Both the position numbers and the translations under genes were made by a program. 64,000 bases of DNA from Pomacea canaliculata (Eukaryota; Mollusca; Gastropoda; Architaenioglossa; Ampullariidae), in NCBI RefSeq assembly GCF_003073045.1, contig NC_037593.1, positions 11,518,735 to 11,582,734 on the forward strand, given 5' to 3'. Numbering within the stretch: the stretch's first letter is position 1; every line of letters begins with the position of its first letter. The notes beneath the pieces are model-generated. The model did not search any database, was not told where the DNA came from, and saw nothing but the letters and a program-made list of their open reading frames with translations. Positions 23,601 through 64,000 of this stretch are shown one piece after another.

Positions 23601-26169
23601 TTGGGTGGGGGGATACAGTGTAGGTGGTATTATGGGGAGACTGCCAGGTAAAGCGAGGATGTGGGTGACGGAGTGCAACTTTTCAAAGATAAACATGGTG
23701 CTGGCATGTCGACAATTTGCGAAAAGCAGCCACAAAACAACAAAGCATCGTTACTACGGCAACACACCACAGAAATATAACAGTATGGGATCATGTCACG
23801 GTCTACGATCACCGTTTTGTCCTCAGTTCACATGTGGTTGGAAGCTCACATTCTTGTTGAGGAGACCCGCCAGCTGAGCCCCGTCCAGCCTCGCAGACCG
23901 CTTTTTGCCACTGACGACTTCCGGTGGCACACTGGGGACCTCCACGCCGTCAAACAGCCAGACGAACTCAAAGGCTTGATCCGGGTCGCTGCCTTTGAAG
24001 GTCAGGTCACAGGTGAAGTAGAAGGATTTCCCGCTAATCACAGGTCCTCCAAATATTGGAAGGTCAGTCAGCTGTGGGTAGGGATCTGCCGATGGAGGAG
24101 AGAGCAGAACCATTGATGGACTCTCTCGGTGAGGAAACACGTTTGTGAAAATTTCAGACAATACAAGGGGACGGGGTACGCCGCAATTACATTCAGTGAA
24201 ACTTAAAATGCCTTTGCCTGTCACACACCAAAGGAGTTGTTTCTTGGCTATGACTGTCCTAAGGACCATCACATTCTTGTAGTCCATCTTAACCTGCGTC
24301 TTACCGAAATTAGTTTCATTACACATTACACAGACGTCAATATGTTGCGGAGACATCTTGGCATACAAGATAACCTGTCCACTCACCTTTACAGCCAGGT
24401 GGAAAACCTGTAGGAGACCACTTTCCAGCGGGACACGGTTGGTCTTTTCCTACAAAATTCAACAAGCGGAGATCTTAAGAACTTGTCTTACAGATGCATC
24501 TTAATTATAGTATCACTTTATGTATTATTTCTTCTCTATCACTTTCCTTCTCTCTCTTTGTCTCTTTTACTATACATATAGAGAGAGATTATAAAGTAGA
24601 CTATGGTTCTGTTTGTTACATAACTCCACTATACACATTGTTCGAATCTCCTTACATCTGTCAGGTGTATTCTTGCCGTTGATGGTTCGGCGATGGACTT
24701 GGTTAGTGTACACTGCCCTATACCGTGTAAGATGTTACCAGTGGTTCCATGATGAATAAATGGTATGCAGGCAAGCCACCCTTTATTCCAAACCTAATCT
24801 TCTCATTTCTTATAACGAGGTGTCAACCTGCTATTTTAGGGAGGAGACATCAAGTGTATGTTTCCTTATTTTCTTCACTGATGTCTAGCATAAGGTGGCA
24901 TGACTTTATTGAAGAGATACATACCTTCTCACAATGAAATAATAAATAGAACACAGCCTGTGCATGCAAAAATCATTAAAATTAGAGTTGAGGTCCAACT
25001 GAAACATATATGAAAGGTCGGATAAAAAACATTTATTTTCGAATTACCTGCACAATACGCCATCGGGCAGGCTGGTGTTGGATGTAGATAATAAACAAAA
25101 AAACGGCCACAGTTCTTGACCCCGATGTTGATAGACTGTCCACAGCAGGGAGTCTTGGGGGCGCCACCAGTCATGATGTTCGCGCATGCTTGCCTCGTTT
25201 GGATTCCGTCACGTTCGGAGGGGTGAGCGCCATTCAGCCATATTGGAACCGTCGTCCCGCACTGCACGCGCAGACATTGCAGGACAGCATGAATAGAGTC
25301 TGTTACTATTAATTAATTACTAGTTTCTTCTTCTTGCAATCTAGCACATTCTAACAAATAATTGTGCAAGATCGTTAATGACATTGCAATAATTGAATAA
25401 TAGTTTTCTCTTCGTCTCTGATGGATTGATACGGATACGGATGTATTGATAGATAATGAAAATCTTTATTTCTGTACCTTAGAAACTTCGACGCATTTTT
25501 CGGGCATTTTACTCTCAGCATCTACCACAAACCGGTACCAGCCGGAGTCAAGGTTCATGTCGCACAGAGGAGGTTCTGGGAAGGCAGTCTCAAAGGCGAT
25601 ACTGCGGTGAACCTCCGTCAGGTTCTTGTAGTTTCCACTGAGACAAGGGTTAGGCATCGTCTGGGCAGCAACATCTGGGCAGGTAGAGATAGGAAATCAT
25701 CATCGTCGATGAAGTTTAGCAAACAAAGTCACCCTTCAACAGGTTTTTTTTTTAAGAGAAATATTATTACTGTCGTGTTTGAGACACCCCAAAAAATGGA
25801 AGATGTCGATATATATTAATTCTATCACTTTTATTCGATTTTAGTTCAATGTTTCGGCGCATTGTCTTAAAGAAATCCACTAATGTCGGAATTTTGTTTT
25901 TAATTTTATAACGTTCTTTAACATCACTATCTTTCAAAATGGATTCTCTCTCGTGTTCCAAAGTTCTAGCAATTATTTCAATTTCTTTTTTATGACCGAC
26001 AATGTATCACGCCAATTGCTCGTCCTCAAAACAATCGGTACAAATATTGTCTAACAAACTACACAAAATGTGCGAGAATAATTATTTAAATAATTAACTC
26101 ACAGTGAAGAGCTGCTAAAGTCAGCAAAAACGAAGGAAGGAAGCAATTCGCTGTGCGTGCACACCCCAT
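15764..26169 (-). CDS. Secreted mosaic protein: D8C, Ig-like, vWD, EGF and C-terminal C-type lectin domain
   Basis: Exons, 5' to 3' on the minus strand: 26169-26103, 25674-25478, 25261-25048, 24449-24387, 24085-23850, 23501-23409, 22929-22912 (18-nt microexon), 22810-22594, 22490-22273, 21882-21806, 21666-21603, 21353-21135, 20876-20656, 20454-20310, 19837-19693, 19516-19350, 19168-18903, 18478-18379, 18096-18006, 17684-17560, 17174-17057, 16559-16380, 16017-15764. All junctions are GT-AG and all phases agree, giving about 1,164 aa. Domains: signal peptide 1-22; D8C (LDSGWYRF, MPEKCVEVSK, CGTTVPIWLNGAHP) about 30-160; Ig-like (FTCDL, FVWLFDG, VGCKVRA) about 185-290; vWD from CSLVTDPHI to GLCGTFDNNP, about 443-635; EGF-like CYINGRCERGRCVC near 850; VWDE-type modules with YDSSCQTC and CLINNQC; long-form CTLD 1021-1164 with QPD and LND. 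The first 17 or so exons resemble VWDE and D8C proteins; the terminal CTLD is unusual. Exon 15 could instead start at 19899, but that breaks phase. Likely an extracellular adhesion or recognition protein. Confidence 0.88.
17263..17299. repeat. TTG microsatellite in an intron
   Basis: About 12 GTT units lie in the intron between the VWDE-type module exons at 17560 and 17174 of the mosaic lectin gene. Confidence 0.95.
18800..18886. repeat. Interrupted ACA/ACT trinucleotide repeat in an intron
   Basis: A degenerate run of ACA, ACT and CTA triplets lies just downstream of the EGF-exon donor at 18903 on the coding (minus) strand, very close to the splice site. Confidence 0.85.
20577..20646. repeat. 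AAC microsatellite beside a vWD exon
   Basis: About 23 AAC units, with one interruption (ATC), end 10 bp from the last base of the vWD exon at 20656. On the coding strand this is a GTT repeat at the 5' end of the intron. Confidence 0.95.
23581..23603. repeat. TTG microsatellite in an intron
   Basis: About eight TTG units lie in the intron that separates the two exons of the Ig-like domain. Confidence 0.9.
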
Positions 26170-26182
26170 GGTAGGATAGAGA

Positions 26183-26207
26183 ACCAATCTACGTGCCCGT
26201 ATTTATA
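26183..26207 (-). promoter_or_regulatory. TATA-type core promoter of the VWDE-like/lectin gene
   Basis: On the minus strand TATAAAT reads at 26207-26201, about 31 nt upstream of the start codon at 26169. A CCAAT pentamer lies on the opposite strand near 26184-26188. The 5' UTR must be very short if this TATA is used. The same block is duplicated at 41468-41508 and 52945-52985. Confidence 0.6.
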
Positions 26208-26630
26208 CTGAACAGCCACCGGGATGTAGCAACCAACTGTTGCCGCGCAAGAATACACCCGGACACAGGACGCGGATTTAGACTGTGGTAAGTCCGGCGC
26301 CGGCGCAAGGCTGTGATGCGCCCCTTGGGGGAGAGGTGGGGAGAAAAATACTGTGCCCACCTCCACCCCTCACCCCAACCACCCACACAAACACATCTCC
26401 TCCCAAAAGAGAAACTTTTATCAGCAACAATATTGAATCAGAAGGAGATTTCAAACTCTCGTCTGAAAGGTTTTATTGAGTGGCGACACTTCGACTACAC
26501 ACTGATGCAGACAAGAAATCTGCCGCACCTCTCCGCTCTGTGTCCGGTCTGATAGAGTTTGTTAAAAACTAGAGAGGTATATAACCTACCGGTCTTAATA
26601 CCCATTATCTCTTTATAACCAATTAAAATA

Positions 26631-26647
26631 GGGTTAGGGTTAGGTTA
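26631..26647. repeat. Short telomere-like TTAGGG insertion in unit 1
   Basis: GGGTTAGGGTTAGGTTA occurs where units 2 and 3 have unrelated AT-rich sequence (near 42028 and 53505). It is about two and a half TTAGGG units. Confidence 0.6.
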
Positions 26648-27180
26648 TTATCAATAAAATATAACAACAAGCTATTCGTTCAAACTGTATACAAACAGAC
26701 CCAATCTTAGATAATAAAAATAAATAACAATAAACAAACATTCCAATTTGACAAATAAATTAACAGAAATACACCTGTGCAAAAGTTGTGTGTGTGTGTG
26801 TGTGTGTTTTAGAAAGAGAAAGAGGTAAAAAAACGTAAACTGAAAGTATTGGAATAAAACAAGGTAAAATGTTGAAATATGTATGTAAATATAAAAAAAT
26901 AATTATTTAGTTGTGTGGGGTAAGTCACCTTTCCAACATTAACAACACCAAAAGCAATAATAATAATAATGTCAAAAATCTAAATTGTATCCAAATAATC
27001 AGCAACACACCGAAATTAATTAACAGCAACAAAAATTAAAGGGGATGTTTATAATCTGTAATTAATCACAATATTGTTAATAAATTGAAATTCTAAAAAA
27101 ACTGCCTCAAAAGACAACTTTCAAATGCAGGCTAATAACCATCATAGACAGAAAAATTCCCGGGTGAGCAATGAGTAGGT

Positions 27181-27660
27181 TCAGAGGTCAAGTACCACGT
27201 GATGTTTGTCGTGATCTGGCACGAGCCGCCAGCTGCAGGTGCTGGTAACGATATGATGAAAAAGAGAATCAATATTATTGTTTACTCAATGCCGTTGTAA
27301 ATAATACAGGATGTAGGCAGGCAGCTGTCGCTAAATCTTGTCTGGTTTGGCAGTGATAGCAATCCTAAATAACTGTTATCAGGCTGGATTCCATAGGTGT
27401 ACCTTTCAAAAATAAATAAATATGTCAACAGTCATGTAGTGTAAAGAAAACATGAATTTTCACAGTTTGTATCAAACGTTAAGTTGAACAAATGTTCCAA
27501 CACACAAATACAATGCACGCGCATGTTTAGGTAAGCACACGTGCAGTCGTAGCTGCTCACCTGTCCAGGTACTTGTGGGGTGGCGGCTGTACACCCAGGA
27601 TGACAGGGATGTTGTCTAGTGGGATGGTTCGCACCTTCCCTTCTCTACAACTTGTACTGG
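27181..27660 (-). CDS. Three 3'-terminal exons of an unrecognised gene (partial)
   Basis: Minus-strand exons 27660-27561, 27402-27286 and 27241-27181 have GT-AG sites and fully compatible phases (1 to 2, 2 to 2, then stop). They read through about 92 residues including VRTIPLDNIPVILGVQ, PPPHKYLDRYTYGIQP, SCIIYNGI and CSWRLVPDHDKHHVVLDL, ending at TGA 27183-27181. I do not recognise the family. The CSWRL...VVLDL end is only loosely CUB-like. Upstream exons should lie above 27660 but I could not find them with confidence. It lies head-to-tail upstream of the VWDE-like/lectin promoter on the same strand. The last two exons are partly copied in units 2 and 3. Confidence 0.55.
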
Positions 27661-29696
27661 CTGTGAATGTCGAGATATCCATGACAACTTTACTCATCAT
27701 ATGGCAATATTCTTGCTTTGTATTTTCACAGGAATACAAAAGCCATAACCAGGAGACATGACAGCTTGAACTAGCAATTAGTTTGTTGAAAATTAAATTG
27801 AGTAAACAACACACGAGTGCCTAGCTCTTCTTACAGCCAACAAGTCATGTTACAACTTGTAAGATGAATGTGTCTAAGTATTAACTTTTACTGAATTCCT
27901 TTTTTAAGTAAATATCAAAGCGGCGTTTTATGAAGCCCTTTAGTTTTTTAATTTCGAGAGCAGTTAGGTGTCAGTCTGTTGATGTTTGATGCTGGTGTGC
28001 ATGACATAAACAGTTAGACGGCTGCGTAGTAACTTTCCTGCCCTCAGAGAATAAATAAACCTTACCAGAGAGGTTAATTTTTATCTTGATGGGAGCTGGT
28101 TGAACATTTGACTTCATCTGTCATAATTACTCCACAAATAGTTACACCATATCCCCATGCCCCTCTTGTTTACTTAGGATTTATGGTGAACAAAGGAAAC
28201 TTAGTCTGCAATTAGTTCAGTTGACATTTGATTGTTCTGATAGCAATTAGCTTCTGTGGACTGCAATGTTATGAGATCACAGAAGTAAACAGTTATATAC
28301 GGTGCTAAAATATTTTCTAAGAGAGGTGGACTGGAACTGTATGTGGGGACCAGGATGATGAACTTTTCGTTAATAATTACTACTGCATTAATTTTGATTA
28401 TATGTAATTAATCGGAACAAACTTATCGCAATGCCTTATCTCCCGTATTCTCATTTTCTCCGCCTCTTTAACAGCCTGCTTTAACTGAAACTTAGTTGGT
28501 TGAGGAGATTTTGTTTACAATTATTTTTATAATTTATAATTTGAGAGTCATGCACGGGATGAGTAAACAAACACTACAAAGACTGAGTATATGTTAGGAG
28601 TTTCGATCGTTCTTTCCTGGTGTATACGGAGACCAGAATAAAATCAAATATCTTACATAAGGAGGGAGGAAGGTAGGAAGTTGAATGGCTGTGAGCTGGT
28701 TACTGCCCCTCGACAAAGCCATTTCTTATAAATGTAGCTATTAATTATCAGCGAAAGATTCAAATTGAAATTCGTTAACTAACTCAAACGGCAATGCCAC
28801 ATATGATTAATTCTCTTCTCCTGGAGTTGAGAGGTCATCATGGAGGTTCCGGAAGCTGGCGCTGTTCCCGGTCCCCAGAGGTTGGGTAGGTCAAGGGTGA
28901 GAGTTGATTCCGCGCTTTGTTTTTGTGTCTAGTTGCTGGAATGTTTACCAGGGATGTTTGTTCCATGTTTTAGGTTACACTAGGTATTCACAGACCGTGG
29001 GAAGTGCATGTGATGGACCCTACCGCATAAAACAATTGAGTTTCTGACTTAATGGATCGTTATTAATTAATGTTATTAGATGCATAACGTGTGACTTATG
29101 CTTTTCATTGGTTCAATAAGAACTCAATATACTATTCCATACACTCCGTATACCACAATCTTTGAAACTAAAAATAACTGCTGTTATTGTTGATGCACGC
29201 GCTGTTACAGGATTATTTACCTGTTGACACCTGTGTGCAAGGTCGACGGGTGACCACGTTGTGAAGAGTGATTGTTTAGAGACCTGTAAACATCCCTTTT
29301 TTTAATGGGAGGAGCAGATATTTGTTTTGCTGTGCACAGCAATGAAAACAAACACGAGGTTTCTGACGACTATTCACTTCTTCGGTGTCAGGTGTGACCG
29401 TCAGGTGTCCTGGTTGTACAGGTGTGGTATGAAGTGAGCGACCTTTGCCGTCAGTATGTGAGCGCGTGCCGCTTAATTATAGTTCAAAGCACGCGCCCGC
29501 GTGGTTTGTTTTTGAGACAAGAGTGATGAGGAGCAGCAGGGGAAAGTGAAAATCAATATTTTACCTGGAATAGGGAAAATAATTTGTTAAGTCCTATACC
29601 AGGTGATAGAACTGATGACTATGGAAAGACTCTATATGCCACAGTAAAGTCTATTGTTAAAACTATTTTTTTTAAATTACTATGTAGACAGTAGAC
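27661..29696. other. Unit 1-specific stretch, upstream exons of the unknown gene may lie here
   Basis: This DNA is absent from units 2 and 3. It is AT-rich with a less AT-rich patch near 28840-28900 that could hold an exon, but I found no splice-bounded frame that continues the terminal exons at 27181-27660. Confidence 0.3.
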
Positions 29697-29986
29697 CAGG
29701 GGTGGGCAATTAATTTTCCCAAGGGGCCGCATGAGAAATTGGGATGGTTTTAGAGGGCCGGACTAATATAGTTAACTCAGTTTTACCCAATACTTTATCT
29801 ATAGTATATAACTTAAGATTGTAAAGTGACAAAACATTCTATACAAGGCGAGTTCTTTATAGGGGTGGTCAGGGGTCAAAACATTCTACGTCGGGTGGTT
29901 CTTTGATTGGGGGGCCAGCGGGCGGGCCGGTCAGAGACAGGAGGCGGGCCGGATCCGGCCCGCGGGCCGGCGTTTGCCCAGGTCTG
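29697..29986. mobile_element. hAT-type MITE with 8-bp target-site duplication
   Basis: The 290-bp element starts CAGGGGTGGGCAA and ends TTTGCCCAGGTCTG, imperfect inverted termini. It is flanked by direct 8-bp repeats CAGTAGAC at 29689-29696 and 29987-29994. The interior is GC-rich (GGGCCGCATGAG, CGGGCCGGATCCGG), unlike the host DNA. No transposase is encoded. Eight-bp duplications and CAG-type termini are diagnostic of hAT. Confidence 0.92.
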
Positions 29987-31304
29987 CAGTAGACGGTTGC
30001 AAGCCTTGTACTCAATCTTGGCAAATGTGACGTCAATCGAAAAAGCAAGATAGTCACATAAGTAAAGAAAACAGAAAAAGCTTCTAGATAAATGAGCGAC
30101 GAGAAGGTTGCACAGCCTCAGTCAGTGGACATTTCACTGGGTGTCAGGGTTAATTAGTCTCATTAAGCTGGTCAGAATGTAACACCTGTATGAACAATTC
30201 CCTAGACTCAAGGGCATGAGATAAACACATGGACTAACAACAACATACGGGGCGGAGTACATCTTACAAGGGTGTGTGAACGCGTCGGATAGGTACAGGC
30301 AATGTCTGGTTTATTTTGAACTACAGTCAGCTGCTTACAGTCTTTGATGTCTGTGGGTTAATGAAGGAAACAGAAATATTGATGTAATAAGCGGTGTTGC
30401 TTCATTCAGATACAAAATGGCATGAAGATAAAATGGAAAATGCCGAAAGCGTAAAAAAAGAAGAAAGGCGATAGTATAAATGAAGTCTGCCTAGCGAAAC
30501 TCACACAAAAAGAACAGATTTTCGGAGATCGAAAAAAATTAGTGTAAATGTTAAATATCATAATGTTGCAAGAATAGTAGAAATGCTTGAACAATGTAAT
30601 CTACAATAAAGCTGTTTCTTTTGAAAAGAATCAAAAACAAAGTAGTCCATTTGCTAAGCATGTCATAGCTGATCAGAATTATTTCTAGTCCAAGTGTTTT
30701 CACTACTATACAAGTAATATTGCAAATAAAGTCCGCTGACTATCTAGCTTATGATTAAGCCGCAACGCAGCTTATAAAACAAAGAAAGATTAAAAGAAGA
30801 ATTTACAACGAAAGAGATGAATAATAAGTCACATGTGACAGTCACTGCATACCTGTTAGCGGCCAAAAAAAGTTAAAACATACAACTTCAATATTAATGT
30901 GCAATTTGACAGTCTTCTCAAGCGGAAGAAAATCTCGACCAAAACACTCGTGGGGATACAAGTGACGACGGTCCAAAGGAAAACATCAATTTACCGACTG
31001 CAAAATTATGATCCAGGGAACAACAGTGAGAGAATAATAGTGAAACTAGCCATGACATTACTTGACAACAAAGCTGTCTGCCAAACGCTGGGGGGCCGCT
31101 GATAAAAGGTTTTTCTCAAGCTGGAACTACTCAGGGCATGTAACAGATTATAATAGTTATTGCTCTCTATCTGAGCAGTGGTTGTGATGGAGCGTGGGAT
31201 AATGGCGGTAAAGCTTCAGTAATCATCTAATGCAGCAAACAATACAAATCATGCAAATCCTTAATGAAGCGTTGTTGTTGTTGATACAAGCTGTCGGTCG
31301 TTCA
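29987..31304. other. Non-coding flank in unit 1
   Basis: From about 30610 this stretch is homologous to the DNA next to the reversed CTLD-B exons of units 2 and 3. The part nearest 31304 also weakly matches the 3' flank of the VWDE-like/lectin gene near 15480-15600. No open gene is recognised. Confidence 0.45.
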
Positions 31305-31558
31305 CTACATACTGATGTCTGCCTGACAAACAAACGACAGCTTTAATGGACAGGAACAGTCGTTAAGAGCGAAATTGTTTGGAAAGGCGATCTCAACACA
31401 GTCTTCGACTTCCCCAGCGTCGTCCAGCTGGCCACGTGACCCGAGGGGGGAATCTGTCATCAAGGGGGTGCCGTCGCTCCACAGGAAGTGACCCTCGCTT
31501 ACAATGTCGTCTGCTCCAATTCACAGACCTTGGCCTAATTTTGGATCTGTCTCTTTAC
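31305..31558 (-). pseudogene. Reversed CTLD-B exon of unit 1, with premature stop
   Basis: This matches the last exon of the VWDE-like/lectin gene (16017-15764): same phase-1 acceptor, similar body (LGQG, GADDIV, WSDGTPL) and end FVCQADISM. The Trp codon in GLWIG is TGA at 31523-31521, so it cannot be read through. The carbohydrate-site triplet is QLD rather than QPD. The intron behind it is homologous to the VWDE-gene intron up to about 31900, then breaks off at a telomere-like repeat, so no partner CTLD-A exon sits beside it. Confidence 0.9.
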
Positions 31559-31901
31559 CTGCACAAACATGAAGATTTTCTTCTCATCCGAAACATTCGT
31601 TGAATCTCATTTTACCAATTAATTTAAAAAACAGAATCGAAAGTGAGTGCTGAGTAAAGTAGCCCTCAATAATTTATAGTAGATGGACGGACAGATTCCC
31701 GCGTGTTTAGTAATGACAAAATGATTGTTTTGCAGTGGCAGAGGTAGTGATGTGTGGACATGGAACACGACTGTCTTTCATGAAGCTAATTAAATGCAGT
31801 TAAATGACATACAAGAAAAGTAAATAAGAAAATGAATTACAGTGTGGAGATGTATTTCAGCACTCATTTGTGCGAAATCTTATGCTTTAATTCAGAGACA
31901 A

Positions 31902-31921
31902 CTAACCCTAACCCTAACCCT
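31902..31921. repeat. Telomere-like CCCTAA repeat at a rearrangement junction
   Basis: CTAACCCTAACCCTAACCCT lies exactly where homology to the VWDE-gene CTLD intron stops, a few bases short of where the CTLD-A exon would be expected. Units 2 and 3 lack this segment. Confidence 0.75.
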
Positions 31922-32989
31922 GACATCTTTATTTGTAAAAAAACAGACTTTAAACCTAAATTCAAAACCCAGACAAGGAAAAGCGGGTGTGCTCCACATG
32001 CGCTGGACCCGGACATCACCAGTTTCAGCTAACAGGGGAAGTAACACGTCTCGCACTCTAAATCTGAATAAGGTAGTTATTAACACACAACAACAACAAC
32101 AACAAGAACAAAGGCAATACTTTCGCTCGCCCTCACGCGCACCTACAGACTAGAATAGTGTGGAACCCAAACCAATAAACGTCCACTCACCCAAACGGCT
32201 TGTGACAGGTCGATGGACTTATTGTTTGAAGTTATTTCAACGGAATGGGTGGTCCGTCCAACTACACCGCACATTACTAAAGTTATGATGTCAAGATTTT
32301 TTAAAATCTATTGCGTGGAGGACATCTTGAATCTTTCCTTGACAATGTCTTGCTACATTTAAACAAAAGTCTTTTGCTTCTTTATTATGAAATCAACCAA
32401 TTAAATAAGAAGACAGTTAAGAAGCATTGTACTAGAAACGTTTTCCAGTAATGCTGTCTACCTCCTAAACCTCAAAACGTTTTGTGTGACGTGTTGCTTT
32501 ACTAGTTGTTTATCTTTCCTGTTGAAACATGTCGTGTTAGATACAACTATGTATTTCGGCAAAAGTGTTTCCTATTGTTGGGAGCAATGAAGACAGATTG
32601 ATCTCAGGAGGTGGGGTAAAAAATGTGTTTTCCTAATAAAATGGTGCAGCTCCGAGACAAAAACTACCATCTTGCTTCGTCGAGTGACATCACATGTTGC
32701 AGATGGGCGGTAACCGACTCACAGCCATTTATCTTCCCATGTTTGTCCTCACTGTTAGAGATAAATCATTTATTTTTGCCTCACTCACATTTTTGAATTA
32801 AGCTGATTGTCTCCATACAAAACAATTAATTGGTGCGCGGGCTTTGAACTGTATTTGAGTTACAGAAAACACAATAGAATATTGATGACAGGGCGAGTTC
32901 ATGTCAGACCACGCCTCTCGTGACGTGGATAACTTTTGTTACCGGCCGGCCTTCTCTCACAAAATAATTATTTTTAATGCCACGTGGGA

Positions 32990-33040
32990 GTGTGGACGAG
33001 AGTATATATTGCTGATGCCGCCCTGTGTTCAGACAGTCCG
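32990..33040 (+). promoter_or_regulatory. TATA core promoter of the unit 1 lectin gene
   Basis: TATATAT at 33003-33009 is followed about 27 nt later by TCAGACAGTCC, an initiator-like start region. The first splice donor lies at 33098. The block is conserved in unit 2 (TATA 45122-45128) and unit 3 (TATA 56604-56610). Confidence 0.7.
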
Positions 33041-33094
33041 AGGTCTCTCCTCTACGAACCACGTGAACACAGCGAGAAGTACAGACGTGTCGAT

Positions 33095-36000
33095 ATGGTA
33101 AGAGTTTATGTAGATACTTACATACTTATGTACTTATGTAGATACTTACACTACTTACTGAAATTTTGTATAAGTCTGGGGAAGCTGCAATTTTTTAAGA
33201 ATATTAAAAAAACTTAACCATTACAATCAAATGATGGTATGCTGCAGATTTAACGTTTTATGATTATTATTCACAAGTTATTTTTCTTTGCGACTCTGGT
33301 TTGATATTCCACAGGTTCATGCTGGGATCTTAAATTTTATTCTCCATCACTGCACGGAAAATGTGATTAGTTTTCTCTGTTGGATCTTGTTTATTAGTCT
33401 ACTCAATCAAATGCCATCGTGAGTGTATTGACTATTTGTTCTCAGGCCGCCTCACGATCACCTCGTCTCACAATCGTGATGCTACTGGCTCTCACCTGTG
33501 TGGCGACTGTCACCTTGGGCAAGTTCTGTTTCTTGTCTCTTGTTTCTATGGTTAAAAAACTTCATTTGTGATCAGACAATTAGAAATAAACATCACTGAT
33601 GTTGTTGCCTTGACAACAACTAGCATTTACATGACAGAATAGATAACATTTATTATTGTAATGTATGTTATAAATACATATTATGTAAAATATATGTCCT
33701 GAGCAGGTAACGGATCAAAGAGAATTAGAAATTCAGGCTTGATGATCACAGCAATAAGAAATTTATTTATAACAAAACATGTATAAATATAAGATAAATA
33801 TTTTGTAACCTTATCTCTAATTACACAGCACTGTATCACTTAGCATATTTTAAAACAATCTTTATTATAGTTTGTAATGTTTCCGATCACTCATTTTTAG
33901 TGTATCCTCATAAGAATGTTACTCAAATATGGAAGACACAAACAGCGCTGACTACACATCACTAACTAAGTCTTTGTGTAGACAAGTTGTGTAGTCATTA
34001 GTCAACATTGTAGACCGAATTTAGGGTGATGAGAGATTTGGATTATTGTAAAAATGACAACTATTGCCAAAAGGAAGTGCAGGGAGATTAACAAAATGTA
34101 AATATACATAACATAGACGAAATAGAAAAACTAATGAGCAATAAAAATTAATCTAACATCTATGTAATTGCTGCGAATGTAACCGTTAATAAAAAATCTG
34201 CAACAGAAAGCATGGTAATTACAAACAGGTAAACAATCACAAAGGCAAGTTTTAGAGTTGCGTTGTTTCCAGAAAATAATAGGAAGAGCTCCATGTCTTT
34301 GATGTTGTCAACACCTACAATGTAGAGTTGTTTAGCAGGTAACAGTAAGTTGTTTTGTTTGTTTAGGTGCGCCTAGTGAGAACGGAAACAGCTCTGTTGC
34401 TCGTCCGAGTAAAGCTGCTAAGGCTCCCTCCGGTAAACCTACATTAACAGTAACTACAGTAGAAATAACACATGTTTAAAGAGGTTTATGTCTCTTTATT
34501 ATGTACAATTACTGACGGTTACTGCACTTTCCTGCTTTCCTGTCATCAGAAACTCTCTCGCTCGCCTCACTGCCCATCGCATGATGATACTCTTTATATT
34601 AAGTTTTATTTGTTTAGTCAACAATAGTTTTGTTTATTTCTGGCTACTTTTCCCGGTGAGTAGGATACATTAGGATTCTTTTTGTACGTGTTAGAATAGA
34701 GCACGAGGCTTGTAAAGTCACGTGACTAAATAGTTTGGGTTCAGCTCGTTTATCGAAGTGTAGACAATAACCCTGATGATACAAACTTTGTTGTTAGATA
34801 ACATTGTACGGGAAAGTGATTCACTGTCATTACTGCACGTGCAGAACAACACTTGAAATTCTAATTTGAAATTGTCGGCCGTTAAAACGTCCGACTGCAG
34901 CTATTAGTAGTACCATTGGAAGTCAAATTATCCGTTGTAGGAAAGTCTCCAGTGTCCGTGCTGATGCAGTGGGCACGGAGACATGCAGACAAAGACTGAC
35001 AGTGACAGTGACTACACCAGTACACACTACTTACACTTACAATGCCGAGGGTCGCTAATGTAAAGGTCAGTTCCTGACACAACATGTTGCGATGTAAACT
35101 TGTTTGTGCAGGTGGCTGTCCTGTGGATAAAGGTTACGAGCTTTATGACAATCGTTGTCTGAAGCTGTACACTGAGAGTCAAGACTACCAGACTGCCAGA
35201 GCGCGCTGTGAAGCTGATGGAGCTCATCTCTTTCACTTCAAGTCACGTGATCAGGATAGCCCGGCCTTGGTTCATCTGTTGACCACGAGGGGTAAGTTGA
35301 TACAAATGTTACTGTCATCTACAGCACGAATGAGGTGTAGTACGAAAAATTGGTAAATCCAAACTTAAAAAAGGACATACTGACGTTAAGAAGAAGAAGA
35401 ATATTCTCATTTAAGACTCCCGCACTTGTACAACATGCACTCACTCATACACAAAGTACAGCCAATAGATGGCAGTGTGATACCCAGGACAAGTGATACA
35501 AACCTCAGGGTAAGTCCAAGTGAAATGTTTGTAGGCTAAAAGGCCCACGACTAGCAGCCAGTGAGGATGTGAAATCTTAGAACTTTTATGAGAAGTTACT
35601 AACACTGACTTTATACTCAAATTTTTTTTTAAAAGCTCATTTGCAAAATGACATACTGGAAAAAAGAAAATTAAATTTAAAAAATCAGTTTGCATATTTC
35701 AAGTACTCCATTTCAAATACTAATTTACTAAATACAACTAAAACACATTTATTTTAAAGTTACTATTATATACTGTTGTGCTAATTTTTTAATAGAAAAA
35801 TTAAAAGGTATTTTATGTGAGGTAGGCAGCTTCAAATATTACAAAAATTATCAATTTTTCATGAGTAACGAACTCAAAACAAATTCAATTTCTAAGCTAC
35901 TAGAGAGATGAGATTTTGTTCAAATTTGAAACACTGTCAGAAATCACGGATATCTTTTAATCTATATAGTGTTAATTACTTTTACTTGTAGTAGAGGGGG

Positions 36001-37526: not shown

Positions 37527-37634
37527 ATGACAAATAATGAGCTGTCAACACTGTACGTTAGTAACGGTCAGTCCGCTGGTCTCAGTCTCCTTCTACTTTA
37601 ACCATGCCATACTGGTCATGTTAAAATTTGACGA

Positions 37635-47619: not shown

Positions 47620-47657
<38 letters not shown>

Positions 47658-54243: not shown

Positions 54244-54915
54244 TTCTTTTGAAAAGATTCAAAAACAAAGTAGCTGTAGGCAGCCACTAACTGTTGCATT
54301 GTTCATCAAAACAAGTCACAACTGACCATACTAGAACTTGAAAACTTTTTGGGGGGTAGGTTGGGGTGGAGAGAAACTCTTAACTTAAATGTTGAAGTAC
54401 GTATTGCTATTTAATATTTCCCATGTAGGGCTGGATGCTATTTAACAGCACAGAGTTATCAAAAACTCTGAAGTACATAGGTTAACAGATAAAGAACAAG
54501 AACTGGGTGTAATTTGACAATCTTCTCAAGAGGAAAAAAATCTCGACCAAAACACAGGTGAGGATACAAGTGACGACGGTGCCAACGAAAACATCAATGT
54601 ACCGACTGCAAAATTATGAAACAGGGAACAGCAGTGAGAGAATAATACTGAAACTAGCCATGACATTACTTGACAACAAAGCTGTCTGCTAAACACTGGG
54701 GGTCCGCTGATGAAAGGTTTTTCTCAAGCCGGAACTACTCAGGGCATGTAACAGATTATAATAGTTATTGCTCTCTGACTGAGCATTGGTTGTGATGGAG
54801 CGTAGGATAATGGCGGTAAATCTTCTGTAATCATCTAATGCAGCAAACAATACAAGTCATGCAAATCCTTAAAGATGTGTTGTTGTTGTTGTTGACAAAA
54901 GCTATCGGTAGTTCA

Positions 54916-55166
54916 CTACATGCTGATGTCTGCCTGACAAACAAACGACAGCTTTAACGGACAGTAACAGTCGTTAAGAACGAAATTGTTTGAGAAGATC
55001 TCAACATAGTCTTCGACTTCCCCCGCGTCGTCCGGGTGGCCACGTGGCCAGAGTGGAGAACCTATCACCAAGGGGGTGCCGTCGCTCCACAGGAAGTGAC
55101 CCTCGCTTACAATGTCGTCTGCTCCAATCCACAGACCTTTACCTAATTTAGGATTTATCCGTTGAC
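54916..55166 (-). pseudogene. Reversed CTLD-B exon of unit 3, open but with a lost cysteine
   Basis: Same state as unit 2: phase-1 acceptor, open to TAG 54918-54916, Cys to Tyr in EDC, HPD instead of QPD. The shared lesions predate the split of units 2 and 3. Confidence 0.8.
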
Positions 55167-55542
55167 CTGCACAAACATGAAGATTTTCATCTTATCCGAA
55201 ACATTCATTTAATCTCATTGTAACATTTTATTAAAAAAATTAGAATCAAAAGTGAATGCTGAGTAAAGTAGCCCTTAATAATTTATAGTAGAAGGACGGA
55301 TAGATAGCCGCGTGCTTAGTGATGACAAAACGATTGTTTTGCAGCGACAGAGGTAGTGATGTGTGGACATGGAACACAACTGACTTTTGCGAAGTTACTT
55401 TCACTCGCCCTCACGCGCACACCTACAGACTAGAATAGTGTGGAACCCAAAACAATAGACGTCCACTTATCCAAATGGCTTGTGACAGGTCGATGGACTT
55501 GTTTGAAGTTATTTCAACAGAATGGGCGGTTTGTCCAACTAC

Positions 55543-55690
55543 GGGATTTTAAGTGAAAGAGATGAGTCCTGTCAGCTTCACATAGGTGTTTAAAAGTATG
55601 TTAGTCTTGCTGAACCAAATACAAAATAAAGGCGACAAAACCGTAAATACCGAAACCTTTCTGTACAGGGTACGTGTGATGTTACACAGT
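55543..55690 (-). pseudogene. Decayed second CTLD-A exon, unit 3
   Basis: Counterpart of the unit 2 remnant at 44060-44205, with the same missing core. It sits 377 nt from CTLD-B. Confidence 0.6.
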
Positions 55691-56695
55691 GCGAGGCTAG
55701 GTACCTTTCCTTGATGATGATGAATGCTAAGATCACAATCATACTACTCACATCGGCAGGACAAATTATAACAGTTGATGCAGAGTTTCCCTGAAATTTA
55801 TTGTCTTTACAGTCTCCTTTCCATGCTCTGATACTTTTCTGCTTCATCCATCACTCGGGGCACTTTGACTTGACGATCATTTGAAGTAAACATATCAGAG
55901 CAAAGTTCTGACTGGAGGACATTTCTTGGGTAATAACTGTGTAGGTGTTCTGCTTATCACAGAGCAAAATCTTTTTTTCATATTCCGAACAAAAAGCTTC
56001 ACTTGGACATTTTTGTCACAGTTATCTGGAAATGACTTACATGCTTAATTTAAGATTGTAATAATCATTAAAAATTAAGGAGTCAGCCCTGTATCCTAAT
56101 CACTTGTCTTTCTTAACAATAATGATATCTTTTCCCCTACTTTGCTTAGGTCATAAATAGGTGAAACAGTTTTTCCCTTTGTTTTGTTAAATACTGAAGT
56201 TATCAATGAAAAAATCCAACTCACATAACGACATTTGAATCAACAGGTTGTGACACTAAATTATGTCCACATTAGCTGCTATGGTTACGGACTGAGAACA
56301 CGTGGGTGTGGTCATCAAAAGAAAATCTCATTTGTTAAATCTTTGTGTTTTATGAGGCAAAAATGTTTTTCCGGAACATCACACTCCCATTTTTGCCTTA
56401 ACTTGATTGTCTCCATACAAAAAAATAATTGGTGCGCGAGCTGTGGACTGTATTCGAGTTCCAGACAACACAATAGAATTTTGATGACAGGGCGAGTTCA
56501 TGTCAGACAACGCCTCTCGTGACGTGGATAACTTTTGTTAATGACCCGCCTTCTCTCACAAAATAATTATTTTTAATGCCATGTCCGGGAGTATGGACGA
56601 GAGTATATATTGCTGATGCCGCCCTGTGTTCAGACATTCCGAGGTCTCTCCTCTACGAACCACGTGATCAAAGCGAGAAGTACACACGAGTTCAG

Positions 56696-59600
56696 ATGGT
56701 AAGAGTTTATGTAGATAACACACTACTTATTGAAAGTTTGTATCAGTCTTAGGCGCTGCTGTTGTTTTAAGAATATTAAAAGAACTTAACACTACAATCA
56801 AGTGATGGTATGTCGCAGATTTAATGTTTTATGTTTATTATTCACAAGTTCTTTTTGATTGCCACTCAGGTTAGATATTTAACCGGTTCATACTGAAATC
56901 TTAAATTTTATTCTCCGTCAGTGCACGGAAAATGTGATTAGTTTTCTCTGTTGGATCTTGTTTATTAGTCTACTCAATCAAATGCCATCGTGAGTGTATT
57001 CACTATTTGTTCTCAGGCCGCCTCACACTCACCTCGTCTCTCAATCGTGATGCTACTGGCTCTCACCTGTGTGGCGACTGTCACCTTGGGCAAGTCCATT
57101 AGAAATTCAGGTTTGCTGATCACAGTAATAGCAAGTTTATTGATAACAAAACATGTATAAATATTAGATAAATATTATGTAACTCATCTCTAATTTCACA
57201 GCACTGTATCACTTAGCATATTTTAAAACAATCTTTATTATAGTAATATGTAAAATGTAAAGCAAGATGAACATAACATAGATGAAAATAAAAAATAAAT
57301 AATGAGCAATAAGAATTAATCTAACATCTACGCAACTGCTGCGAATGTAACCGGTAATAAAACATCTGCAACAGAAAGCACGGTAATTACAAACAGGTAA
57401 ACTATCACGAAGGCAAGTTTAATAGCAGCGTTGTTTCCAAAAGGTGAAAGGAAGAGCTTCATGTCTTTGATGTTGTCAACACCTACAATGTAGAGTTGTT
57501 TAGCAGGTAACAGTAAGTTGTTTTGTTTGTTTATCTGCGGCTATTGAGAAACGAAACAGCTCTGTTGCTCGTCCGAGTAAAGGTAAAGGCGGAGGCCCCC
57601 TCCGGTAAACCTACATTAACTACGGTAGAAATAACACATGTTTAAAGAGGTTTATGTATCTTCATAATGTACAATTACTGACGGTTACTGCACTCGACTG
57701 TGGAGCAGAAACTCGTTTACTGGTCTCTTCTGCTTTCCTGTCATCAGAAACTCTCTCGCTCGCCTCACTGCCCGTTACTCCAAAGTTTATCAGAGAAGAT
57801 CAAGGAAGCGGAGTCGTCTTTGTCCTCCCATACATTGCTGTAGAGTGGTCAAGCACTAAACTTTCAGCCGTAAACTAGGCTCTGGAACTAGTACCTGTAT
57901 ATATGTCTTATATAGAAATTGTTCAAATGTACGTGAAAGTGTTAAAGGTTTAAGAGGGACCTTTAAGTCGTACTGTCACTCTCGTAGGTCCTGGGCTGAC
58001 GTGTACAAGCGAACTTAAACATGAACTTAAGCTTAAGTTGGCTGACTTAACCTTTAGTACAGTAACTAGGTGTGCACAAGACAACTCAAGTCCGCTAAGT
58101 ACAAAATTTCTTACTCAACTTTAAGACTGCTCTCCCCCTGGTATAAACCCTTACTTAGCCGAGTCGGGCGACTTAAGTTAGCACATTTCTGATTTCTTCG
58201 TGTGAAGAGTGACAGAAGATGGCAGCGAGACGACTGTGCTTTAGAATGATGATAAGAAGACATTTGAGGAGGGAACGTGTGTTTCGTGACAGACACAATC
58301 CTTTTTGACCTGTATGATCCGTGATATAGCCCTAGTTGCTGGCACGGCATAAAACACAAACAATTTGACCTGTATGACGACGATGAACTCTACGCTCGAT
58401 GTCGCTCATCTCTAATTTCACAGTACTGTATCACTTAGCATATCTTAAAACAATCTTTATTATAGTTTGTAATTTTTAAGATCACTCATTTTAGTGTATC
58501 CTCATAAGAATATGACTCAAATATGGAAGACACAAACAGGGCTAAGTAAACATCACTAACTGAGTTGCTAGCACGGCATAAAACTCAAACAATTTGACCT
58601 GTATGACGACGACGAACTCTAAGCTCGATGTCGCTTTCGGCGAGTTAATATCATGTACCTTCGCGATTTACTACAGGAGGACATCGACCACCCTGGCTTT
58701 TAAATTTGACCTTTTTTTTAATTTGGGCCCACTCTCGTTTTTGCTCTCCACGAGCACTGATGACAACTGCTATGTCTTTCCACAGCTGATTTTTTTTCTT
58801 TGCGGTCCACAAATTTCAAAAGCCTTCTTTGTGCTCTTCCACCAAGCTGATCAGAAGCCGAATCTCACAATCCCTCCAGTTGGCCGTAGGTCTTTCTTTT
58901 TGGTAATTGTTTCCAATTTGTTCAGGCAAATACCTCAATCTCAAAAGATAGTATCGTGGTTGAAAAGACTGAACAGGAGCAAACATAAAAGCGTAATGCG
59001 CGAACAAAGCGATTGTTGATTGGCTGTCTGTATATAACGCGAGACAATCCACGCAAATTCTGAAAAGGACAAGTCTTGACCCATTTCTTAACTAAGCAAG
59101 CACCTGAGTCCGTTCATGCACACCAACGTCGATTCTCGCCATCCACGAACTCAGCTGAGTCAAATTTGCGGTTAAGTCAGCCAACTTCAGTAAGAAATTT
59201 AAGTTCGCTTATGCACATCAGCCCAGAAGCCAGGACTGATCGTTGTGCTGCTTTTTCAACTCTTACAATTACTTTTCGACTACAGCAGCCGTCTGAATTT
59301 AAGCTGCTTTATTACTGTGATATACCAGGAAAGGGATGGTGATACTATTTATATTAAGTTTTATTTGTTTAGTCGACAATAGTTTTGTTTATTTCTGGCT
59401 ACTTTTCCCGGTGACTAGGATACATTAGGGTTCTTTTTGTACGTGTTAGAATAGAGCGAGAGGTTTGTAAAGTCACGTGACTAAATAGTTTGGGTTCAGC
59501 TCGTTTATCGAAGTGTAGACAGTAACCCTGATATGACATTCTTGTTAGATATCTTTGTAAGGGAAAACGATTCACTGTCATTACTGCATGTGCAGAACAA

Positions 59601-61240
59601 CACTACAAGTTCTAATTTCAAATCGTCGGCCGTTAAAACGTCCGACTGCAGCTATCAGTAGTACCATTGGAAGTCAAATTATCCGTTGTAGGAAAGTCTC
59701 TTCTGCCAGTGTCCGTGCAGACACAGTGGGCACGGAGACATCCAGACAAAGACTGACAGTGACTACACCAGTACACACTACTTACACTTACAATGCCGAG
59801 GGTCGCTAATGTAAAGGTCAGTTCCTGACAACATGTTGCGATGTAAACTTGTTTGTGCAGGTGGCTGTCCTGTGGAGAGAGGTTACGTGCTTTGTGACAA
59901 TCGTTGTCTGAAGCTGTACACCATCAAGCAAGACTACCAAACTGCCAGAACGCGCTGTGAAGCTGATGGAGCTCATCTCTTTTTCTTCAAGTCACGTGAT
60001 CAGGATGTCCCGGCCTTGCAGTATCTGTTGGACACGAGGGGTAAGTTGATACAAACGTTACTGTCATCTACAGCACGAATGAGGAGTAGTACAAAAAATT
60101 GGTCAGTCCAAAATTTAAAAAAGGTCATACTGACGTTAAGAAGAAGAAGAAGAAAAAAAAGATGATGATGATGATGATGATGATGAGGAGGAGGAGGAGG
60201 AGGAGGAGGATGGCAATAATAATAGCAATAATAATAGCAATAACGAAACATTATACAACGCCTTTCTAAAATTTTCTCAGAGCACTTTACCTACACCATA
60301 TACAGACTAGATGATCAACAAATATGTATCAATATTCTCATTTAAAAGACCCCACCGACCCCACCTTTGATTAAGGGAAGAGCTTTAAACATTTGTAACA
60401 CAAAATCATAAGAGTAGTTGTAGTATGTTAACAAATAATAGTCAGATGTGGTTATTATGTCCGAGTGCTTCGCTGCAGATTTCACTTCCCCTCGTTAATT
60501 CACTTCATTATTGTCTGGCTCCGAGTTTTAAGCAGATTAGAATAGTTTTAAATCATTAAAACGGTGCAATAGTTCTAGAAATTTTATCTATAATATTAAT
60601 AATTACCAATGGCTTATTTTAACAATTCAACTTCGTGCTAAAGTATATCACTAACGATAAAATGCTATCGACGTATAACAGTAAATCATCGACTCAGTTT
60701 TTGTTCTGTTTTTCTGACACTTTAATTAAACACTACAAATAATCATTTTTAAAAGCTGCATGCCGGAACGCAATATAAATACCGTAATATCCTACTTTTG
60801 TTTTTCATCAGCAAATGTAACCTTGTCTAAAGTGGAGACAAACTTGTCTCTTTTTATTGCCTGTCAGTTAAATTATATTACGGAGCACTTTGCAAACCCA
60901 GCCCTAGTTAAAATCAACAGTAGACATCACTAGATTGTAATGTAGACCTTTAGATAAAATATTCATTAAAAAAAAAAATCATTCTTTGTGCTCAGGTGAA
61001 GTGCTCCAGGGTATAGCCCAAGGTTTATGGGTTGGAGCAACTGACATTGAAGTGGAGGGACAGTTTGTGTGGAGTGACAACTCCTGTGTGCCGACAAATA
61101 CCGGACTCTGGGCCCACACTCAACCGGACAACTATTTGAACAACGAGGACTGTGTTGTAGTCGGCATCTCGAGCGGTATCATGCTCAACGACCTTCCCTG
61201 CTCGTCGAGAAATGGATATGTCTGTCAGGTTGACATATAG
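56696..61240 (+). CDS. Secreted C-type lectin, unit 3 (166 aa model, linker exon skipped)
   Basis: Exons: 56696-56698 (ATG), 57017-57089 (signal peptide, ends VATVTLG, GC donor), 59861-60040 (CTLD-A), 60996-61240 (CTLD-B, stop TAG). All phase 1 and open. The linker exon (near 57540-57594) has lost its acceptor (TTTAG to TTTAT) and its length no longer fits, but skipping it keeps the frame. The CTLD has GGCPVERGYVLCDNRC, GLWVGATDIEVEG, WSDNSCVP, QPDN, EDC, LND and GYVCQVDI. Compared with unit 1 there are two extra cysteines, one in each half. QPD predicts galactose-type binding. A 43-codon open stretch after TCATCAG at 57748-57878, ending in TAG, is a possible alternative terminal exon. Harbinger fragments sit in the long intron. 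Confidence 0.78.
58195..58407 (+). mobile_element. Harbinger transposase N-terminal fragment, unit 3 (first copy)
   Basis: From ATG at 58219 it reads MAARRLCFRMMIRRHLRRER then VFRDRHNPF and a stop. DLYDDDELYARCR follows in another register and is cut at 58407 by lectin-intron sequence. The basic N-terminus with RDRxNPF and a following DDELYxRxRF is typical of Harbinger nucleases. Truncated, non-functional. Confidence 0.7.
58408..58574. repeat. Duplicated lectin-intron segment between two Harbinger fragments
   Basis: About 167 bp homologous to the unit 2 intron (45900-46060). Its first part is also at 57185-57243. It restarts the intron-to-Harbinger junction a second time, showing a local duplication or template switch in unit 3. 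Confidence 0.75.
58575..59338. mobile_element. Harbinger fragment, unit 3 (second copy)
   Basis: Homologous to the unit 2 fragment. Plus strand: a DLYDDDEL-type nuclease start with a stop in place of Tyr. Minus strand 59052-58816: a frame ending NWRDCEIRLLISLVEEHKEG, the start of a Myb/SANT-like domain that continues in another frame. Opposed nuclease and Myb-like genes define the family. Both are broken. Confidence 0.7.
60138..60211. repeat. AAG / GAT / GAG compound microsatellite, unit 3
   Basis: Shorter allele of the unit 2 array, in the intron following CTLD-A. Confidence 0.95.
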
Positions 61241-61941
61241 AAGCAGTGAATGACAAATAATGAGCTGTCAACACTACGTTAGTAACGGTCAGTCCGCTGG
61301 TCTCAGTCTCCTACTTTTACCATGCCACACTGGTCATGTTACAATTTGACGAAATAAAGCAATATTGAAATCACTCCTTCCATCATTGTGTTCTTATCCC
61401 TTGTAATGTAAGGGTTGTCGAGAAAGTGAATGTGATACACAGTGGCAAAGGTAGATGTTTATCTTGTATATAATTATTTCACACGAGATAACAGACCAGA
61501 ACAATTTGTAACTATCTGATAAATTAACCCCCTTATCATATTTTACACTTGACAGCATTTACAGGTTATTTTAGCATGTGAATTCGTGACCTCAGTATTT
61601 AAAGACAAAGACAAGACATCTGCGATCGTGTTTCTGTAGACAATTGGTCTACATTACGCAGAACTGTATTAGAGAAATGCAGTGTCTAGGCGAGTCTTAA
61701 CAATGAATGTGACTAAGGTGGAAGCCTTGTACAAACCTGCCTCGTTTTAGTAGTTAACTGTTAAAAATCTTTTGCCTTCAGTCCAGTTATACAACTTCGT
61801 GGTATGATTGCTTAAGGCGTAAGTGAACATCTACATGTGACCACTAATTAATTAAAGCAAGCAGGTACCTCAAGGTGATACTTCACGCTCGTCTGATAAC
61901 ACACGTCATCAACTGGAAGTCAGCAGCCGTGTGTAACCTAC

Positions 61942-62118
61942 CCATCGTGTCCAGCAGCAACAGCAATGGCGGGCCGTACAGCTCACGTGACAAGTTAAAG
62001 AGATGAGCTCAATCGGTTTCACATCGCCTTCTGGCAGTCTGGTAGTCCTGCTTGATGGTGTACAGCTACAGACACCGATTGTTGTAAAGAACATAACCTT
62101 TCTCCACAAGACAGCCGC
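61942..62118 (-). pseudogene. Reversed CTLD-A exon of unit 3, multiply broken
   Basis: The acceptor CAG is CAA, Lys in CLKLY is TAG (62068-62066), the conserved Pro in GGCPVEK is Leu, and one codon is deleted. The donor GG|GTAGG survives. Clearly non-functional. Confidence 0.88.
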
Positions 62119-64000
62119 TTGTACATGAGATGTTACACATTATATATTGCGTATATGACAAAGCCAACTATTTCACTGACTAAAGACAAAGAGCAGCATG
62201 TAATACAATTAGTACTTACTATAACAACACGATTATGAAGCAAAAAATAACACACAGGAAAAGCTTCTGGAAGGACGCTTAGAAACAGGAGTGGGAAGGA
62301 TTTCTCTCTCTCTCCTTTCAATCTGTCCTATCTCTTTTTTTTTTTCAAACTATGTAAGAATGAAAGTGTTTTTCTTTTTTTCTTTTTTTTTTTCTTTTTT
62401 TTTTTTGTTTCATCGATTATAATCTATTAAAATAAGACTAAAAAATGAAAGAGATACAGGTAAACAAAATGTAACAGAAACTACGAATCCACAATAGAAG
62501 CCAAACATTTTAATGAAATATTTCTGCATTAATACAATTTAAAAAATGACAACATATTCTGTTGGATACAATGTTAAACAAAATAAAAATTAGGTTTCAC
62601 TGTTAAAGTGACAATTAAAAAGAATGTCATTGAAAGTGAGGCTTTGAAGTCCGTGAGTTTAGACCGTGAGTTTTCTATTCTTTGAGTGGTTCCTTTTGTT
62701 TTGCTTTTAATTTTTAATTTACCACACAAAAAAACCTTGCAACACTGCAGCTAATCAAAGCAAAAGTAGACAAGACCATTATCCCCTAAGAAACTTGTTT
62801 GGAGCCAGAAATTGAATATAATATTTGTTATCCATGCAGACACGTTTTCTTTTGATTACGAGGCAAGAAGAGAGAACAGAGCAAAAAAGGAAAGAAGAGG
62901 ATGGAGGACAGAGAGAAAGGAAAAGAGATAAAGAATTTTAAAAAGGATCAAATGATTAAAAATACAAAAGCTTCATCTCCAATACTTTATTTTGTTGCTG
63001 ATGAACGTTTATTTTTAAAACATCTAGAAGATTGACTTACTTTCATTATTACAGAAACATTTTTAATTTAAATGCCACAGACGTGGAAAATAATTCCCTT
63101 GGTCCCTTGAGGCATTTGTAAACGTGGTGGCTACAGGTCTGTCATTGCGATACACTCAGACACGGGAGGGAACTTCTGCATTACCTTCATTCATTACAAG
63201 GTTATCTCCCTTACACCGTGTAACCACTCTCAAAAGACAAGCGAAAGAGACAGAGAAGAATGTGACAGGATATTTTGCATAAGCATAGAATTTATGATTT
63301 CTAGACACACTAAACCTCGGTTTTGGTGGATAATCTAAAAACTAAAAAAAAAATTGCTAAAGTAAAGAATAAATAAATATTTCACATGGCATTTTTTATT
63401 CTGCAAACTCTTCTTTGTGTATGGAAGACGGCAAGGAAAGGAGAAAGAGGTATACATATTATTTTTTCGACAATCGACTATAACCAAAGTGAATGAAAAC
63501 TGATGTTTCGTTGTACTTTACTTTCTCTTAGAAATTAAAATTAATAAATAAAATGAAGCGGTGCTCGGGGTCATGTTTACCAGACTTATTTTTCAACTGA
63601 AAGACATTTTTGTTGATCTATATTGGGTATATTGTGAAATACCCGTATAAGAAATTGTATGGCAAGAAACACACAAACACTTTTTCCAGCATACTAAGTA
63701 GAACATGTCAGATTTACATGTGCTGTGCTGATTATTAGAACGGTGTTCGAAGCCAAGGATCTTGATTTCAGTTCTTACACACTGAATTTCAATAAATTAA
63801 AGCATCTTTTTGTGAAAACATAATATCGTTTATTTCATCTGTATCTGCCAAAATAGCGAATGAAGATTTTCTGTGGACTTTTCAGCTTTCCGCAAATTAA
63901 CTGAGATTTGAGGTGAAAATAAAGTCTCTGCCAAGTAGATAGAATTTTGAAAGTACGTGTATGCGTGTGCGTGTGTGTGTACTTGTGTTGTTTCATATTG
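62119..64000. other. Unit 3 spacer, incomplete at the window end
   Basis: Homologous to 38868-41330 but with a deletion or replacement around 62570-62685 that removes the stretch matching about 39310-39980. It contains a T-rich run at 62330-62408. No gene recognised. Confidence 0.6.

Follow-up and report, generated by a model that had tools for sequence, protein, structure and literature searches.

What kind of locus is a tandem array in which every repeat carries C-type lectin exons on both strands? The question is raised by a stretch of 64,000 nucleotides from the gastropod Pomacea canaliculata (assembly GCF_003073045.1, contig NC_037593.1, forward-strand positions 11,518,735 to 11,582,734; hereafter the window, in whose own numbering all coordinates are given), where an earlier interpretation made from the DNA letters alone (the sequence-only reading) drew attention to the region from 26154 to the end. 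Here, we propose that this array is probably a small secreted C-type lectin gene multiplied into a birth-and-death cluster, which grew by stepwise unequal tandem duplication and in which lectin exons on the minus strand are decaying.

The array reported by the sequence-only reading is confirmed by self-comparison. Searching the window against itself with blastn (dust filtering on, E at most 1e-20, 39 pairs of at least 150 bp, inverted pairs counted too) resolves head-to-tail homology blocks into three tandem units starting at 26154, 41455 and 52932: U1 (26154..41454, 15.3 kb), U2 (41455..52931, 11.5 kb) and U3 (52932..64000, cut by the window end). The units have a sharp left edge in common, at 26154 in U1, where 26154-26534 and 26541-27391 match 41455-42763 in U2 and 52932-54246 in U3. 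Further along, 38380-45618 (the end of U1 with the start of U2) is 96.3% identical to 49853-57100 (the end of U2 with the start of U3) over 7272 bp, and 45898-47840 is 93.3% identical to 58405-60345. The relationships are mosaic, in that U1 left of 38 kb is 83-93% identical to U2 and U3, while its right end is about 96% identical to U2 (within the 7272-bp block) and 85-95% identical to U3. Unit lengths differ, and a stretch of about 3.5 kb (27391-30899) is present in U1 and absent from U2 and U3. Also confined to U1 is a 415-bp insert (37966-38380) with inverted ends (CAGGGATGCACAACC.../CAGTGATGCCCAACC...) and a flanking 8-bp direct repeat CTGTAGAC, which from its appearance we take to be a hAT-type miniature inverted-repeat transposable element. 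Tandem Repeats Finder (TRF) reported no array scoring at least 200 within 26-64 kb, and none scoring at least 40 at the unit edges.

The order of elements along the plus axis is the same in all three units: a minus-strand exon CTLD-B, a plus-strand gene consisting of a signal-peptide exon and exons A and B, and a minus-strand exon CTLD-A. These lie at 31.3, 33.4-37.5 and 38.7 kb in U1, at 43.5, 45.5-49.5 and 50.2 kb in U2, and at 55.0, 57.0-61.2 and 62.0 kb in U3. The plus-strand lectin between minus-strand A and B exons is thus found in every unit, as had been described, and the description needs amendment on several points: a single C-type lectin domain (CTLD) is encoded by CTLD-A, its N-terminal half-exon, and CTLD-B, its C-terminal one, the plus gene has a signal-peptide exon besides, and U2 and U3 hold an additional, decayed minus A. 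Searches by tblastn with the two halves recovered plus A and B in all three units, minus A and B in all three and the decayed second minus A in two of three, together with the CTLD pair of the neighbouring VWDE-like gene.

How was the array assembled? Across 6820 well-aligned columns of the whole-unit alignment, U1 and U2 differ at 438, U1 and U3 at 477, and U2 and U3 at 223. When the variable sites are taken 25 at a time, U1 is the unit that most often stands apart in all 18 windows up to 38.48 kb; beyond that point U3 leads in three of four windows and U2 in one, with U1 leading in the last (10 sites). Clustering of U3-odd relative to U2-odd sites as strong as this was matched in 7 of 5000 shuffles (P 0.0014), and clustering in the opposite sense gave P 0.22. 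The switch of topology near 38.4 kb is consistent with a latest duplication of about 11.5 kb that had an edge there, and supports the inference that stepwise unequal duplication built the array, as the sequence-only reading had suggested in naming unequal exchange. Gene conversion, its other suggested engine, left no clear tract between units or strands in the whole-unit alignment or the exon trees, comparisons that have little power: no tract joins U1 with U3 (P 0.22), one shared by U1 and U2 at the right end is taken as duplication history, and plus A of U2 and U3 sides with plus A of U1 at 24 sites, against 3 for minus A. A use of this last count to derive minus A from the VWDE-like exon was dropped, as it tests only whether the plus copies cohere.

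The plus-strand gene is the part of the array that looks usable, in U1 and U3. In U1, an exon with a start codon (33446..33518, ATG at 33479; MLLALTCVATVTLG) ends in a phase-1 GC donor GGGCAAGT and is followed by CTLD exon A (35112..35291, phase 1/1) and exon B with the stop codon (37273..37526), giving a full open reading frame (ORF) of 474 nt and 157 amino acids that matches Lectin_C (PF00059) at E 9.1e-14. The U3 gene (57017..57089 with ATG at 57050; 59861..60040; 60996..61240 with stop) is likewise complete and encodes 154 amino acids (Lectin_C E 2.9e-13), and both products exceed the 22.6-bit cut-off of the family, at 52.5 bits for U1 and 50.9 for U3. The ORF is thus complete in two of the three units; in U2 (45535..45607 with ATG at 45568; 47322..47501; 49213..49468) exon B is put out of frame by two inserted bases (TG), which may be either a true mutation or an assembly error. 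From the ATG through the donor of the small exon, 46 bases are identical in all three units, and this exon would encode a signal peptide joined to exon A through the GC donor. It was chosen as the signal exon because that donor puts it in phase with exon A; another candidate, MMILFILSFICLVNNSFVYF at about 34.6 kb, was dropped, its GTGAGT donor being in phase 0 where exon A needs phase 1. A possible GC-AG intron accordingly follows the small exon at 33519, 45608 and 57090, with the same donor in all three plus genes.

The plus genes share with the VWDE-like gene a phase-1 joint between exons A and B. The U1 and U3 translations carry QPDN, NEDC, LND and the final cysteines, with LND standing at the WND position; we take QPD and ND to be the calcium-site motifs of CTLDs. 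The nearest PDB chains to the U1 product (best E 1.5e-17) presumably belong to the mannose-receptor family. The working product of the locus would be a secreted plus-strand lectin that is expressed, and for which, by analogy with the family, sugar binding through QPD, of the galactose type, and an immune role may be forecast. Two features of its introns may be recorded. The 98 aligned bp before exon A (35009-35106 and the U2 and U3 equivalents) show no difference among the three units, the DNA around them otherwise differing by 7-12% between U1 and the others; and the U2 and U3 genes have GAT/GAG/ATA microsatellites within the intron between A and B (47620-47735, 60161-60243), with none among the TRF rows of U1.

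On the minus strand, the exons tell of decay. Minus B has a TGG to TGA stop in U1 (31308..31558), and in U2 (43433..43680) it is open, with one codon gone and the conserved cysteine of EDC changed to tyrosine, a change repeated in the open copy of U3 (54919..55166). Minus A has lost its splice donor in U1 (38688..38867, GT to GA), and in U3 (61942..62118) it carries two stops, a lost codon and an acceptor changed from CAG to CAA; the copy in U2 (50161..50340) is open, with acceptor and donor kept. The decayed second minus A adjoins minus B in U2 (44030..44204, 64% identical to U2 minus A) and in U3 (55515..55669, with one stop codon). Nor do the minus exons change more slowly than their own flanks in any of four comparisons (P 0.38-0.86): for minus A, 12/177 against 36/555 between U2 and U3 and 6/180 against 17/707 between U1 and U2; for minus B, 5/248 against 21/633 and 27/248 against 62/630, respectively. 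Judged by these lesions and rates, the minus exons are dead or dying, and the claim that two working lectin lineages have been amplified together is not supported. Each comparison used local controls; a direct contrast of plus with minus exons (5/437 against 18/417, P 0.005) was set aside as confounded, the two stretches differing in their U2-U3 divergence.

From where did the minus exons come? The neighbouring minus-strand gene (15764..25675) holds D8C_UMOD, VWD and EGF-like exons and ends in CTLD exons A (16380-16559) and B (15764-16017). Profile matches are 1.5e-11 for D8C_UMOD and 1.7e-5 for VWD, with 1.1e-5 and 4.7e-5 for the EGF-type exon, both under the curated cut-offs. The reading frame continues from the exon at 17057-17175, which has a phase-1 end, through A and B, so that the gene has an open C-terminal CTLD, which matches Lectin_C at 2.9e-11. 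We call it VWDE-like on the order of its domains, in which it would resemble VWDE, the von Willebrand factor D and EGF domain protein; the order of D8C_UMOD, VWD and EGF-like exons is shared, whereas the gene here goes on through two further in-phase exons to end in a C-type lectin domain. Among the open-access literature matches listed, we found nothing relevant on VWDE combined with a C-type lectin. Exons were sought up to 25.7 kb, several exon-like ORFs of the gene had no credible Pfam match, and all its exons would belong to one transcript. When ten of its exons besides A and B were used to query the window (E 0.05), the only matches outside the gene were three weak ones to the EGF exon on the plus strand (E 0.022-0.030), near 40.1, 51.6 and 62.8 kb.

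For minus B the answer is clear on sequence comparison. With intron and 3' flank included, the minus-B block of U1 (31237-31900) has 82% identity with 15699-16355 of the VWDE-like gene, and because the minus majority agrees with the VWDE-like exon B at 91 sites and with the plus exon at 12, minus B evidently descends from the last exon of that gene. The sequence-only reading, which had derived both minus exons from there, is therefore upheld for B, and for A the signal is divided. Minus A is 78-80% identical to VWDE-like 16363-16580 and, over 223 bp, 79.8% identical to plus A of U2; its exon leans towards the plus gene and its short flanks, which side with the VWDE-like gene at 12 sites and with the plus gene at 3, lean the other way. 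Trees of A and of B each group the plus copies as a clade with support of 100; they are unrooted, and minus A is unplaced in them. Telomere-like GGGTTA runs occur at 31902-31921, abutting the breakpoint of the minus-B block, and at 26631-26642, both in U1, with three exact matches (two overlapping) to the telomere-like 12-mer against 0.01 expected. The first was considered as a mark of break repair and the idea was dropped, there being a second at 26631 and the region being absent from U2 and U3.

A rival account of the minus strand, a real if tentative possibility, is that minus A and minus B have separate origins and were at no time one split gene, A being an old or inverted relic and the decayed A the original partner of B. 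Several observations weigh against our own proposal here. In exon A, 24 sites of the minus majority agree with the plus gene and 17 with the VWDE-like gene, unlike in exon B, and minus A of U1 and U2 has an identity of 0.825 to plus A of U2 and U3 and of 0.776-0.798 to the VWDE-like exon; since the minus A exon is thus nearer to the plus gene, a single split A-B copy is not established. The homology of minus A is exon-sized, its match into the intron being short (about 10-15 bp), and the decayed A, some 350 bp upstream of minus B, has much the position that A has in the VWDE-like gene; it may be the true partner of B. Against independent pieces stand the short flanks of minus A, and the breakpoints in the A-B intron of the VWDE-like gene: homology to the U1 B block ends at 16355 and that to minus A starts at 16363, and with 7 bp between them they favour one copied pair that was later split by the plus-gene segment. 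Moreover, the decayed A is just 64-71% identical to other A exons (branch 0.52) and so older than the B block, at 80-83%. The origin and history of minus A that we give below are accordingly worded as conjecture. A bolder alternative, which we consider very unlikely, is that in every unit splicing joins minus A to minus B over the plus gene, making two working lectin genes nested head-on and co-evolving. It fits the order and strands of all three units, the agreeing intron phases of A and B, and the open A and B of U2, where both splice sites of minus A are preserved and the A-B frame is open, a further point against the decay that we propose. Yet the would-be host exons carry damage or losses in every unit: in U1 the donor is gone and B is interrupted by a stop, A of U3 contains two stops, and in U2 and U3 a conserved cysteine is lost. 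The minus exons also change like their flanks. A simple scan of the array for an upstream minus-strand start exon (a hydrophobic start and a phase-1 GT donor) gave a single, chance-like site near 53.2 kb, a weak negative because the scan also missed the GC-donor exon of the plus gene. The narrower version, in which at least the U2 pair (50161-50340 and 43433-43680) still gives a transcript spliced over the plus gene, yielding a second lectin or an antisense control on the secreted one, so that the array amplifies a head-on pair, is just as remote.

Our proposal sets a decaying minus strand beside a plus gene that is kept, and it is here that the other rivals enter. Between U2 and U3, plus A and B differ at 5/437 sites against 138/2936 in non-coding DNA (P 1.7e-4) under a looser filter, and at 5/434 against 97/2869 (P 0.0105) under a strict one, in which poorly aligned stretches are removed and diverged non-coding DNA is stripped. 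Non-synonymous changes stand at 2/338, which is below non-coding DNA in three controls (P 4.8e-5 against 138/2936, 0.0023 against 97/2869 and 0.025 against 25/960 in the near flanks), so that the plus protein appears, though not overwhelmingly, to have been maintained after the last duplication. It is unlikely, in our view, that every lectin copy in the array, the plus ones too, is a pseudogene of a dying cluster: this would account for the frameshift in U2 and for a U1-U3 omega of 0.85, indistinguishable from 1 (P 0.59), but leaves two complete ORFs with splice signals, an identical signal-peptide exon and the scarcity of non-synonymous change to be explained. Also in its favour, plus A and B are not significantly slower than their near flanks (5/434 against 25/960, P 0.11). 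This counts against our own proposal too, as do the exons tested singly (P 0.80 for A and 0.10 for B), an omega between U1 and U2 or U3 of 0.82-0.85, not different from 1, the frameshift in one of the three plus genes, and the dependence of the signal-peptide exon on a non-canonical GC donor. Nor does the divergence of U1 help, as under the strict filter its plus exons differ from those of U2 at 54/434 sites (non-coding 198/2702, P 0.0006) and from those of U3 at 51/434 (148/2045, P 0.0025). This excess suggests another history, improbable on balance, in which plus A and B of U1, or of the ancestor of U2 and U3, were overwritten by exchange with lectin copies lying beyond the window and so diversified in exon-sized steps. 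Synonymous sites are raised as well (12.5-13.5 of 94), and the signal-peptide exon and the 98 bp or so before A show no excess; however, the looser filter removes the significance (P 0.18 for U1-U2; 51/437 against 292/2329, P 0.69, for U1-U3), the strict filter is biased toward such a result, and there is no donor copy within the window. For exon A alone omega between U1 and U2 or U3 reaches 2.2 to 2.5, with only 2.67 synonymous changes. As change in plus A and B together is raised at synonymous and non-synonymous sites alike, exchange of whole exons with unseen copies is indistinguishable from diversifying selection and from relaxed constraint. For the fast diversification of lectins that the sequence-only reading had raised as possible, the evidence is divided: U1 may show it under one filter and does not under the other, and U2 and U3 are conserved. 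Finally, the units are most improbably assembly artefacts or unmerged haplotypes: the 96% identity of the 7.27-kb block is within the range of very divergent haplotypes, but U1 left of 38 kb differs by 7-17%, insertions and lesions are specific to units, and the topology switches inside a unit.

The birth-and-death cluster that we prefer would have arisen in four steps. The stand-alone lectin, with its signal peptide and two-exon CTLD, and the C-terminal CTLD of the VWDE-like gene would go back to an ancient split of one domain. The terminal part of the VWDE-like gene, comprising at least exon B, its intron and the 3' flank and perhaps A, would then have been copied to the minus strand beside the stand-alone lectin; if A came along, a plus-gene segment would have separated minus A from minus B. 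This composite segment would have been duplicated at least twice, after which the minus exons would have decayed, with U1 and U3 retaining a usable plus gene.

The general kinds of process involved, that is, tandem immune families, segmental duplication and nested genes, appear already in print. In the oyster, immune recognition genes, mainly Toll-like receptors, are described as expanded by local tandem duplication (PMC4346834), and the C-type lectin repertoires of bivalves as lineage-specific and lacking clear orthologues (PMC10140915). The array resembles these mollusc families in the local tandem duplication of recognition genes and differs from them in that every unit also holds relics of lectin exons on the opposite strand. 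In sea urchins, the Sp185/333 cluster similarly combines segmental duplications containing immune-type genes with high turnover, whereas it has short tandem repeats at the duplication edges and is stated to lack pseudogenes; here relics are frequent and no array stands at the edges (PMC5103432). As in published nested intronic genes, a gene lies between two opposite-strand exons, although the would-be host here has lesions and no known 5' exons, so that there is at most nesting in a relic (PMC8467205). Among the open-access literature matches listed, this layout, with a plus-strand lectin between opposite-strand relics of lectin exons, was not found.

Elsewhere in the window, a 5S rRNA gene match (5294-5412, minus strand, 118.6 bits, Rfam) adjoins about 2 kb of some 516 CTCA copies (5521-7583). 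An exon-like ORF of a major facilitator transporter (502-876, minus strand, MFS_1 1.1e-12) lies at the left window end. Within the array, a Pfam search of 39303-39620 and 58582-59019 gave no match.

Were the nested minus pair to be expressed, the array would amplify a head-on pair of genes, and the sequence argues against this. In light of the birth-and-death history that we favour, the locus would instead illustrate the growth of a lectin cluster, in which pieces of a stand-alone lectin and of the terminal CTLD of a VWDE-like gene, both from one ancestral domain, would have been swept into a single repeat unit, within which one lectin is kept and the other is decaying. Its relics appear to be of several ages, from the old decayed A through the younger minus B to the youngest duplication, and the birth and death of lectin genes may therefore be traced at one locus.

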